A stretch of 29,047 nt of DNA from an uncultured Collinsella sp. (lineage in GTDB: Bacteria; Actinomycetota; Coriobacteriia; Coriobacteriales; Coriobacteriaceae). A model generated the notes under the pieces. The model was not told where the DNA came from and did not search any database. It saw only the letters and a program-made list of their open reading frames with translations. Position numbers and translations under genes: made by a program. The stretch is taken from contig CABQHR010000002.1 of the NCBI GenBank assembly GCA_902463875.1, positions 1 through 29,047 of the forward strand, written 5' to 3'. Shown here piece after piece: positions 339 to 29,047 of the stretch (positions are counted from its first letter, which is position 1; the number at the start of each line of letters is the position of its first letter).

Positions 339-473
339 GGTCCCCGACCGGAGGGGCCGGATATAAGGTTTCCTGCTCTACAGTCCTGCGCAAGACGAAG
401 GCCACATTAAGTGGCCTTCTTTGCGTGCGGAACTCGCGATAAACCTTATATCCGGCCCCTCCGGTCGGGGACC
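339..473 (+). repeat. Long hairpin repeat, family 1, copy 1 (33-bp arms, 69-nt core)
   Basis: Positions 339-371 and 441-473 are perfect inverted repeats of 33 bp enclosing a 69-nt core (372-440). The core holds its own hairpin: GAAGGCCAC / GTGGCCTTC (397-405 / 411-419) around an ATTAA loop, extended by CGCAA/TTGCG. The same 69-nt core recurs at 5313-5381 and 23674-23742. The outer arms differ between copies but are perfectly self-complementary in each. The arms open with GGTCC and end next to the core with TAAGGTTT. It lies directly downstream of tsaD, in the same orientation as that gene. No polyT tract follows, so it is not a standard intrinsic terminator. No protein-coding capacity is convincing. 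Confidence 0.95.
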
Positions 474-734
474 TTTCTGTATCGATATGGCTTCTGGGCT
501 GGTTTGGCGTCGACAACGTCCGGCAAGGTTAGCCAGCTGCGTCGAATTTCCGGCGTGCTTTAGCTGAAAGAAAAAGATGGTGTGCAGAGCTTTGCTCCGC
601 ACATTTGGGATGGGAGCTCCCGCGGCCCTCAGGGGCATCTCTCATGCAAAAACTTTTGTTGGGTAAAGTCCGAGGTCAGTGGCGTTTTATACCGAGAATT
701 TCAAAAAAAGTTGAAAATTCATTACAAATTTGCG
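474..734. other. Intergenic stretch with no recognised gene
   Basis: Between the hairpin repeat and the cstA promoter I find no ORF with a ribosome binding site and no known RNA. A small imperfect hairpin lies near 580-600 (GTGCAGAGC TTT GCTCCGCAC), and the stretch becomes AT-rich from about 690. It may contain further decayed repeat sequence or an unrecognised small RNA. Confidence 0.5.
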
Positions 735-5278: not shown

Positions 5279-5415
5279 GGCCCCGGGAGAGCGGGGACAC
5301 CGGCTTAGGTTTCCTGCTCTACAGTCCTGCTCACGACGGAGGCCACATTAAGTGGCCTCCTGTTCGTGCGGAACTCGCGATAAACCTAAGCCGGTGTCCC
5401 CGCTCTCCCGGGGCC
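5279..5415 (+). repeat. Long hairpin repeat, family 1, copy 2 (34-bp arms, 69-nt core)
   Basis: Positions 5279-5312 and 5382-5415 are perfect 34-bp inverted repeats around the 69-nt core at 5313-5381. The arm sequence is unlike copy 1 except at the core-proximal TTAGGTTT and the terminal GGCCC. The core differs from copy 1 at six bases. Two of the changed pairs are compensatory: an A-T to G-C in the inner stem and an A-T to C-G in the lower stem. It starts 8 bp after the stop codon of the preceding gene and has the same orientation as that gene, as in copies 1 and 3. Confidence 0.95.
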
Positions 5416-5480: not shown

Positions 5481-5518
5481 TCTACCACCGTCGCTGTACA
5501 GGGTGTCTATAAAGAGCC

Positions 5519-5748
5519 GTGGCCAAAAAACGGCAAATATGAGTACTGATACTCTTTTAGTAGCAGTAATTTTGACCACATTTAAGGTGATTTGACGTGT
5601 CGATCGAGCAGATAAGCTGCCGTATCTCCTCAAGTGTTCATTAATGGAAGACCTTGATGCGAATAAATCTCATTAAGATCTTCTTTTATTAACGAAAATA
5701 ATGTAGCTACAACGGTAACAGTACTCATATTTGCCGTTTTTTGGCCAC
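5519..5748. mobile_element. 230-bp MITE-like element with 30-bp perfect terminal inverted repeats
   Basis: Positions 5519-5548 and 5719-5748 are perfect 30-bp inverted repeats that begin GTGGCCAAAAAACGGC. They enclose about 170 bp of AT-richer sequence with no convincing ORF. The abrupt drop in GC against both flanks and the ends suggest a non-autonomous transposable element. I see no clear target-site duplication next to the ends, so the exact boundaries and the partner transposase are unknown. A long inverted duplication of other origin is the alternative. Confidence 0.6.
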
Positions 5749-5783
5749 AGTCCTTCGGAGGGTCCTCGAAAATAGTCCCGAGC

Positions 5784-16651: not shown

Positions 16652-16867
16652 TCTCGATCTGTAACGGATAGGGCCGATTTCGGACGTTAGATGTTACAGA
16701 TCGAGGCGGTTCCGCTGAGCTAACCATTTCATCTAAATCTGTAACACCAAAGGCGAATTTCACCTGCTAGATGTTACAGATTGAGATAAACCCAAGGGGA
16801 GGGGCCGGTATGTCTCAATCTGTAACAGCTGGGACCGTTTTGGTTGAGTAGTTGTTATGGATCGAGA
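16652..16867. repeat. Tandem array of three 55-bp palindromic units
   Basis: Three units lie at 16652-16706, 16732-16786 and 16813-16867. Each has outer arms related to TCTCRATCTGTAAC and its reverse complement, separated by exactly 27 nt. In the first two units the spacer ends in TAGAT. Perfect arm pairing is 13 bp in unit 1 and 10 bp in unit 2; unit 3 is degenerate. Unit starts are 80-81 bp apart, so the ATCTGTAAC motif occurs six times in alternating orientation. The array lies between the convergent ends of the ABC operon and glgP, which argues against a promoter operator and for an extragenic palindromic repeat. Confidence 0.8.
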
Positions 16868-23642: not shown

Positions 23643-23773
23643 GGTCCGGGACTGCGGGCGAGGCATAAGGTTGCCTGCTCTACAGTCCTGCGCAAGACGA
23701 AGGCCACATTAAGTGGCCTTCTTTGCGTGCGGAACTCGCGACCAACCTTATGCCTCGCCCGCAGTCCCGGACC
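23643..23773 (+). repeat. Long hairpin repeat, family 1, copy 3 (31-bp arms, 69-nt core)
   Basis: Positions 23643-23673 and 23743-23773 are perfect 31-bp inverted repeats around a 69-nt core (23674-23742). The core differs from copy 1 only at its last base. The arms share with copy 1 only GGTCC at the outer end and ATAAGGTT next to the core. The final T/A pair of copies 1 and 2 (TTT/AAA) is G/C here (TTG/CAA), a paired change. It starts 20 bp after the hydrolase stop and before that gene's terminator, in the gene's orientation. Confidence 0.95.
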
Positions 23774-23825: not shown

Positions 23826-23853
23826 GAAGGCCCCTTTCGGGGCCTTCTTTTTT
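23826..23853 (+). terminator. Terminator of the cell-wall hydrolase gene
   Basis: GAAGGCCCC / GGGGCCTTC (23826-23834 / 23839-23847) with a TTTC loop runs into seven T. It lies beyond hairpin repeat copy 3 and two bases from the end of murB on the opposite strand. Confidence 0.93.
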
Positions 23854-23854
23854 A

Positions 23855-24817
23855 TTAGAGGAATTCGCCTACTCGGTGGACTTCGGGTTCTAGGTCTACG
23901 TTGAATTGGTCTTTGACGGTTGTTTGGATGTGGCGGATGAGTTCGTCGACATCGGCGGCGGTGGCGTGGTCGGCGTTGACGATGAAGCCGCAGTGCTTTT
24001 CGCTCACCTGCGCGCCGCCGATGGCGTGTCCTCGCAGGCCGGCGTCCATGATGAGCTTGCCGGCAAAGTAGCCCTCGGGGCGCTTGAAGGTGGAGCCGGC
24101 GCTCGGCATGTCGAGCGGCTGCTTGTCCTCGCGGCGCTGGCGGTAGTCATCCATGTCGGCCTTGATCATCGCGGCGTTGCCCGGGGCGAGATTGAAAGTG
24201 GCCGAAAGCACGATGAAGCCGTCGTCGGCGATGCGGCTCTTGCGATAACCCAGGTTGAGCTCGTCGACATCGAACTCGATGATGCTGCCGCTACCGCGGG
24301 TACCGTCGTCAAGCATGCGGGCGGGCTTGTAGACGCGCACGGACTCCAGCACATCGGCCATGCAGGCACCGTAGGCACCGGCGTTCATGTAGCAGGCGCC
24401 GCCGACCGATCCGGGAATGCCCGAGATGGGCTCCATGCCGGTGAGACCGGCCTCGGCTGCCGCCGCGGCGACATCGGAAAGCAAGGCGCCGGCTGCCGCC
24501 GTGACGTGCGTGCCGTTGACCGTAATGTCGGAGAAGCCCTCGCTCAGCGCTACGACGACGCCGCGGATGCCCTTGTCGCCGACGAGCAAGTCGGAGCCGT
24601 TGCCCACGATGGTGAGTGGCAGGTCGCAGCGATAGCAGGTATCGAGCGTGGCGACGAGGCCCTGCTCGGTATCGGGCGTGACAAAGACGTCGGCCGGGCC
24701 GCCGATCTTAAACGTGGTGTGCTCGCGCATGGGCTCGCTCATCAGCACGTTGTCCTCGCCGGCAACGCCAGCGAGCGCGCACAGCAGGTCCTCGTTAAAA
24801 AAGTCGTTCTCGTGCAT
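23855..24817 (-). CDS. murB: UDP-N-acetylenolpyruvoylglucosamine reductase
   Basis: This 320-residue flavoprotein reduces UDP-GlcNAc-enolpyruvate to UDP-MurNAc in cytoplasmic peptidoglycan precursor synthesis. Signatures include HTTFKIGGPADVFV, the FAD-binding VGNGSDLLV, SGIPGSVGGACYMNAGAYG, GYRKSRI (catalytic Arg region), the proton-donor Ser in PSAGSTFKRPEG and the terminal Glu in LEPEVHRVG. It is a type I MurB by length. The frame is open 33 codons further upstream; I chose ATG 24817 (MHENDFF), with AAAGGCGGA about ten bases before it. Its end is two bases from the terminator of the convergent hydrolase gene. It is divergent from the LacI-type regulator gene. Confidence 0.95.
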   Translation of the reverse strand: MHENDFFNEDLLCALAGVAGEDNVLMSEPMREHTTFKIGGPADVFVTPDTEQGLVATLDTCYRCDLPLTIVGNGSDLLVGDKGIRGVVVALSEGFSDITVNGTHVTAAAGALLSDVAAAAAEAGLTGMEPISGIPGSVGGACYMNAGAYGACMADVLESVRVYKPARMLDDGTRGSGSIIEFDVDELNLGYRKSRIADDGFIVLSATFNLAPGNAAMIKADMDDYRQRREDKQPLDMPSAGSTFKRPEGYFAGKLIMDAGLRGHAIGGAQVSEKHCGFIVNADHATAADVDELIRHIQTTVKDQFNVDLEPEVHRVGEFL

Positions 24818-28789: not shown

Positions 28790-28876
28790 GGGCCGCCTCC
28801 GGGCGGGGAGACTTTGTCCGGGGAAGTGGGCTTCGCGAACTTCCCCGGACAAAGTCTCCCCGCCCGGAGGCGGCCC
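28790..28876 (+). repeat. Long hairpin repeat, family 2, copy A (38-bp stem, 11-nt loop)
   Basis: Positions 28790-28827 and 28839-28876 are perfect 38-bp inverted repeats with the loop GGGCTTCGCGA (28828-28838). It begins 27 bp after the phosphoketolase stop. No T tract follows. The same loop, reverse complemented, tops the hairpin at 29003-29047; the stem ends next to the loop share GAAGT/ACTTC and, further out, CTTTGT. Confidence 0.92.
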
Positions 28877-29002
28877 TCTCGATCGTTTCGATATGCGGGG
28901 GCTGATACTTTTTAAAGTAATGGGGACTTTGCTGACGCTACCTTGGATACTGTGCATATAACTATGGTCAGCCAGTGATATATCGCCGGGGCCGGGGCGC
29001 CT
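28877..29002. other. Intergenic stretch between two family-2 hairpins
   Basis: About 125 bp contain no ORF with a ribosome site. A short palindrome, ACTTTTTAAAGT, lies at 28907-28918. AT-rich TATAAC-like sequence near 28957 could belong to a promoter for a gene beyond the window; no matching -35 is convincing. Confidence 0.4.
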
Positions 29003-29047
29003 GCTTTGTTTTGAGAAGTTCGCGAAGCCCACTTCTCAAAACAAAGC
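29003..29047 (-). repeat. Hairpin repeat, family 2, copy B (at least 17-bp stem, 11-nt loop, cut by window end)
   Basis: Positions 29003-29019 and 29031-29047 pair perfectly around TCGCGAAGCCC (29020-29030), the exact reverse complement of the copy A loop. The stem may continue past the window end. The arm CTTTGTTTTGAGAAGT matches the copy A arm CTTTGTCCGGGGAAGT at both ends and differs in the middle. Confidence 0.88.

Follow-up and report, generated by a model that had tools for sequence, protein, structure and literature searches.

Many-copy hairpin repeats whose stems vary while the pairing is kept are known in organelles as double-hairpin or palindromic elements, and the repeat family described here differs from them in being bacterial, class-wide and tied to gene ends. 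Hairpins maintained by template switching, together with quasipalindrome correction, are a second close system (PMC8794818, PMC8604942, PMC7202029): they resemble the present family in their homogenised arms, in the change of several bases at once and in an inverted spacer. Template switching is described there as maintaining hairpins (PMC8794818) and as homogenising arms and inverting spacers (PMC8604942), so the copying mechanism is already known; what differs here is that it would have acted repeatedly on a dispersed bacterial family whose loop is conserved across a class. The REP, BIME and REPIN sequences with RAYT are likewise intergenic, palindromic and present in many copies. However, a REP or REPIN is built on a short palindrome that is conserved and tagged by GTAG or CGTC (PMC3733652), whereas the arms of the present family are not conserved between copies, are much longer and free in sequence, and enclose a conserved central loop, not a palindrome; moreover, the family is present where no Y1 transposase was detected. 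Candidate structured RNAs, such as Collinsella-1 (RF01700) and the human-microbiome sets (PMC8040213), share with it a conserved unpaired motif, co-varying stems and the same kind of organism, but no Rfam family matches the present one at the gathering score, its copies number about 30 in each of G001 and G040, and its arms are near perfect. A literature search that took in passages of PMC8040213 found no description of the family, which could be among the thousands of candidates listed in the supplements of that paper.

Elements of the window and copies in other genomes

The window, that is, the whole stretch of 29,047 nucleotides that was analysed, comes from a member of the Collinsella aerofaciens group, and its nearest genome among those compared is G001. 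In a plasmid collection the sole record matched was NZ_OY725717.1 (C. aerofaciens, a 0.9 Mb replicon), in which the gene preceding site 1 is annotated tsaD, and a search of a phage collection gave no match. The window contains three elements, all in the sense of the preceding gene and with its stop codon shortly upstream:

339..371, plus strand: left arm of element 1, 33 nt, beginning 12 nt past the TAG of the preceding gene (tsaD at the same place in an annotated relative)
372..440, plus strand: core of element 1, 69 nt, with the internal-loop motif CTGCTCTACAGTCCT / TGCGGAACTCGCGA flanking a variable inner hairpin
441..473, plus strand: right arm of element 1, the perfect reverse complement of the left arm
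612..636, no strand: site 1b, a scar read as a deletion, the window having no element here
5279..5312, plus strand: left arm of element 2, 34 nt, beginning 8 nt past the TAA of the preceding gene
5313..5381, plus strand: core of element 2, of a different inner-stem subtype (GCTCACGACGG / TGTTCGTGC)
5382..5415, plus strand: right arm of element 2
23643..23673, plus strand: left arm of element 3, 31 nt, beginning 19 nt past the TAA of the preceding gene
23674..23742, plus strand: core of element 3
23743..23773, plus strand: right arm of element 3

The outer arms of 33, 34 and 31 bp are perfect reverse complements within each copy and differ between copies, and the core is exactly 69 nt long in all three, as the initial annotation had stated. 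Its description of the cores as nearly identical applies to cores 1 and 3, which are one base apart, but less well to core 2, which departs from core 1 at six positions lying in the inner stem and the adjoining loop. The fold of element 1 has a z of -14.43, with none of 200 shuffles as stable, and the hairpin pattern is not due to chance. In relatives, site 1b carries a second element, head-to-head with element 1, which occurs as the alleles alpha, beta and gamma.

Other hairpins are present in the same window. At 28790-28876 and about 29000-29047 there are two with a tiny core, GGGCTTCGCGA, in opposite orientations; their arms are perfect but variable, those of the first measuring 38 bp and those of the second extending beyond the window, and relatives of these are found in the complete related genome G040 at 1525879, 1527048 and 1527235. 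At 16652-16866 a palindromic repeat with TCTCGATCTGTAACA-like ends occurs three times in near tandem, at a distance of 80 nt, and similar palindromes are present in G040. Just downstream of element 2, at 5512-5755, two 61-nt arms separated by 122 nt form a long inverted repeat that is imperfect, with 80% complementarity. In addition, G040 has repeats of the reverse design, with fixed arms GAGAGTGGATAATCTCCC and a 28-nt variable spacer, at 99512, 967605, 1329786, 1373971, 1900587 and elsewhere, several of them near palindromes with GGGGACGTTC; these are possibly of REPIN type.

When related genomes were searched, a step suggested at the outset, dozens of copies per genome and class-wide model matches were found. 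G001 gave 28 BLAST matches with the 135-nt element, which correspond to 27 places because one place was matched on both strands, and in the alignment of these copies the arms vary from copy to copy and the core subtypes change both sides of the inner stem together. A scan of G040 for inverted repeats (arms of at least 18 bp, spacers up to 160) gave 153 non-overlapping ones, against 0 in one base-shuffled copy, and a pattern search gave 32 copies of the family, hereafter family 1. A covariance model built from 30 family-1 copies recovered 34 places in G040, namely the 32 strong ones and two weak ones, and matched 40 of the 43 genomes of the genus. In the 22 genomes with a match of at least 90% to the site 1 gene there were 29-47 model matches per genome (the exception is the incomplete G053, with 19), and the true copies are fewer because both strands of one palindrome count twice.

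Furthermore, the model matched 127 of the 246 sampled Coriobacteriia genomes, in 47 of 110 genera (E up to 0.001), and 88 of the 127 at E 1e-8 or better. These E-values are rough and most of the weaker class-wide matches are known from the model score alone, so that they could be other hairpins, since the reverse strand of true copies itself scores about 1e-3 to 1e-5. In a sample of the phylum, 18 of 346 genomes were matched (E up to 0.0001), all of them the nearest genome or members of its genus, family or order. Twelve loci from 12 genera were read, and all 12 have CAGTCCT, or a close sequence, with GGAACT or a close partner, their arms being paired, some imperfectly, and L315 being more diverged; L320, from another order, has an element with perfect 23-bp arms. 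The element is also present in 20 of 20 further distant regions (L321 and L337 included), and the inner stem is much shorter in L337 and L338. A second family of the same design, with variable arms around GTCCTC, a variable stem and TGCGGAAT, has 15 copies in G040 by pattern; its RNA form is GUCCUC - stem - UGCGGAAU, of which the GUCCU / UGCGGAAY part is common to family 1. Several family-2 copies, at G040 951249 and others, resemble one another in what comes after the right arm, a stretch of about TGCGGTAACGTTGCTGG. Poly-G artefacts or contig ends fall inside hairpins in L293 and L295 and at the ends of L059, L074, L086, L096 and L116, and the same pattern is seen at the ends of L118, L132, L133, L282 and L287, which suggests that draft assemblies undercount these hairpins.

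The constant loop and its varying helices

One part of the element is constant, an asymmetric internal loop that in the 32 distant copies read approximates CUCRRACAGUCCU / UGCGGAACUCGC, and the outer arms and the inner stem are free in sequence with their pairing retained. Across 30 aligned sequences, pairing reaches 97% in the outer helix, with two-sided changes at 15 of 15 pairs, the inner helix is 97.8% paired, and the central UCC / GGA pairs are nearly invariant. The alignment has 252 two-sided-change cells compared with 74.7 in shuffles, none of the 500 shuffles reaching 252, for a scored structure that includes as a pair columns 29-79, which pair in no sequence. Sliding the partner strand reduced the count to between 22 and 56 cells, a control that favours the structure because the structure was derived from that same alignment. 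The core subtypes, too, differ by co-varying inner stems. Conserved unpaired positions together with co-varying helices, the marks of a conserved structured RNA, are therefore both present.

At the gathering score no Rfam family covered the window elements, the 12 distant loci or six G040 stretches representing families 1 and 2; the only Rfam matches in the scanned stretches were tRNAs, and Collinsella-1 (RF01700) was not matched. Weak matches at an E-value threshold were rejected, being mostly microRNA-type hairpins far under their own cut-offs. A likeness of ACAGUCCUG to a hairpin-ribozyme substrate was also dropped.

Compensatory change is the ordinary route by which structured RNAs evolve, and the pairing might be kept by selection on the RNA or the DNA through successive compensatory mutations, with no copying from arm to arm. 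The conservation of the structure throughout a class and the co-variation of the inner stem as well as the arms both speak for such an origin, which we nevertheless consider unlikely in view of how the arms and cores have changed at orthologous sites.

Change and origin of the hairpins at orthologous sites

The arms differ even between orthologous copies in related species, and the initial annotation understates the pattern with respect to these orthologous arm differences, the core subtypes and the second motif family. Where the flanks of orthologous sites are close, species differ in whole arms and in core subtypes, and each allele is normally self-paired: at site 3 there are at least four arm types, the other arms of the orthologs being perfectly paired, and at site 1b there are three alleles plus deletion scars. 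Through both flanks 21 of the 27 G001 loci map to G040, where family sequence is present at all 21 (left-truncated at one), with the same arms at some sites and replacement arms at many others.

Pattern searching gave 113 distinct hits, 12 of which had arms of at most 8 bp and were set aside. The arms are mostly 20-49 bp and near perfect: 59 of the remaining 101 hits are perfect and 42 imperfect, and their pairs comprise 3125 Watson-Crick, 20 G.T and 51 mismatched ones under a scoring that penalises G.T and mismatch equally. When wobble was allowed in the scoring, the G040 arms had 31 wobbles against 40 mismatches in 999 pairs, whereas 256 intrinsic terminators of the same genome, scored alike, had 273 against 78 in 3098 pairs; wobbles thus outnumber mismatches about 3.5-fold in the terminators, and the family arms lack such an enrichment, a point against pairing selection by itself. 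Between nearest relatives on a spanning tree, the strict set of comparisons gave 48 two-sided Watson-Crick changes, 22 one-sided changes and 2 two-sided changes to a non-pair. A looser set, in which comparisons between sites were included, gave 125, 27 and 2, respectively. Among the two-sided changes, 23 of 48 in the strict comparisons and 52 of 125 in the looser ones could have passed through a wobble pair, and the other 25 and 73 could not. For instantaneous compensations in rRNA, PMC8794818 gives 61% wobble-reachable and 39% not, so that both sets count against selection on pairing as the only force, the strict-set share (25/48) being only moderately above the rRNA figure.

Cores have, moreover, been inverted in place. 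L270 and L272 have almost identical arms at site 2174980, and between these the two cores run in opposite orientations; at a second site the core of L013 is inverted relative to its G040 ortholog between nearly unchanged arms. Spacer inversion between near-unchanged arms, which is characteristic of template switching, is thus observed at two sites and is a further point against pairing selection alone, although ordinary recombination between the arms could likewise invert a core. Two more candidate inversion clusters were rejected, as they read as adjacent elements and chimeras. Elements with chimeric or unmatched arms occur in L131 and at the G040 sites 731307, 2234285 and 1470422, and mismatched recombinants also persist in L114 and L124. 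Mismatched arms therefore arise and are tolerated for a while, that is, such forms are viable, which favours repair by copying over strict selection only. At site 2 in L061, L070 and L071, a different nested hairpin with GCGAGGGGCCCTGG arms takes the place of the element's left half and meets the rest close to the core loop, and we read the junction as a break point or an insertion at the hairpin tip.

Arm-to-arm copying, one of the routes put forward in the initial annotation, accordingly gains support from the excess of two-sided over one-sided changes, the lack of a wobble excess and the cores inverted between near-unchanged arms. Judged from the aligned sequences, both arms appear to change together and not by way of wobble intermediates, a pattern with which selection alone would also be compatible; indeed, strong selection on pairing could produce a largely similar pattern even if no arm were ever copied.

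Another reading is that of a short mobile element of the MITE or REPIN kind, mobilised by a transposase that works on folded single-stranded DNA, with the target palindrome as its arms. This would account for the many copies per genome, the several families and the head-to-head pairs, and Y1_Tnp proteins are found in 37 of the 43 genus genomes. However, family sequence at all 21 of the mapped G001 loci shares its G040 site, so that the positions look old, and Y1_Tnp does not track copy number, in disagreement with the idea of a linked transposase (the Y1 type being the one searched): no Y1_Tnp was found in G047 or G006, where the model matches number 23 and 12, and four Y1 matches were found in both G048 and G017, where the model has just 4 and 3. 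The Y1 transposase was rejected as the mover on this ground. The element-less alleles of site 2174980 contain neither arm, no empty palindrome and other intergenic content, and at site 1 the loci L136, L137, L141 and L142 have no element and, by eye, no palindrome. Both observations speak against insertion into ready-made palindromes, another of the routes first considered, but they are weak evidence, the four site 1 loci being only 77-79% identical to the query. On the whole, a mobile origin is very unlikely. Also at site 1, the distant Collinsella locus L135 has in the same intergenic place a coreless hairpin whose arms, about 47 bp long, pair perfectly, L138 and L140 have inverted relatives, and L139 has G+C-rich repeats. 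Site 1b of the window was considered as an empty site and rejected, since its sequence, like that of L130, is read as the scar left by a deletion in the gamma allele; the orthologous sites yielded no empty site that was both close and clean.

Gene ends and the proposed role of the loop

A stop codon lies shortly upstream in the sense direction (a coding ORF ending at most 110 nt upstream) in 3 of 3 window copies and in 22 of 36 others tested. Among 25 pattern-defined copies in G040, such an ORF end is found in sense only for 13, in antisense only for 2, on both sides for 1 and on neither for 9, and at 11 distant loci the corresponding numbers are 7, 0, 1 and 3. Likewise, 13 of the 15 family-2 copies are centred 72-99 nt past a stop codon, in the sense orientation. 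In tandem gaps of G040, family-1 copies are in the sense direction in 12 cases and opposite in 10, according to crude gene calls, so that the strand preference is clear only close to stops. The presence of both orientations there would suit a site acting at the DNA level, an extruded hairpin recognised as DNA in, for example, chromosome organisation or recombination, and so would the recombining and inverting arms and the low wobble fraction, which befits DNA pairing. Copies near stops, however, are mostly in the gene sense, which a DNA site does not require, and we regard this reading as distinctly unlikely.

The location behind stop codons and the very stable hairpin also recall ordinary bidirectional intrinsic terminators. 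Against this, an intrinsic terminator is a G+C-rich hairpin with a U-run directly behind it, and in none of the three window copies do four or more consecutive T come right after the arms; element 3 is followed by a separate ordinary hairpin of its own with a T-run (about 23826-23856); and termination does not need a conserved internal loop. In G040 a separate terminator follows 7 of 15 family-1 gene ends and 1 of 13 family-2 gene ends, compared with 209 of 661 other gene ends. For family 1, terminators are thus neither clearly in excess nor lacking. The separate ones at 7 of its 15 ends also count against the elements being terminators themselves, an identity that is highly improbable.

The explanation we prefer, with a probability of about 0.6, starts from the observed anatomy, distribution, co-variation, in-place inversion and location and takes the element to be a structured Coriobacteriia hairpin at gene ends, whose arms would be shaped by template switching and whose loop by selection at the RNA level. 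The arms would be kept identical mainly by template switching during replication, one or a few events sufficing to carry a change from one arm to the other, and recombination between copies or strains would shuffle arms and cores, giving temporary mismatched forms. A conserved asymmetric loop throughout the class goes beyond what template switching provides and therefore needs selection or recognition, and the sense location at gene ends suggests RNA. From its location and conservation, selection probably preserves the core as an RNA motif in the 3'-UTR that would be recognised by some protein or RNA, and the recognition might, for instance, set the 3' end or the stability of the mRNA. This functional step is the weakest part of the explanation and carries most of the doubt.

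Hairpin evolution is usually ascribed to slow pairs of compensatory mutations, and the present family offers dozens of orthologous replicates, one-sided, two-sided, inverted and chimeric, within one species group, so that the share of template switching becomes measurable. The family also exposes a conserved gene-end motif, matched by no Rfam model, across a bacterial class common in the gut. As a tentative extension, which we hold to be possible but not probable, it may form a class-wide 3'-UTR system, in which one loop motif at dozens of mRNA ends per genome would be bound by a factor of the Coriobacteriia, the helices would be maintained almost only by template switching, and family 2 would be a sister set served by the same or a related factor. 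If this is true, selection would preserve the loop, and the replication fork would maintain the helices.
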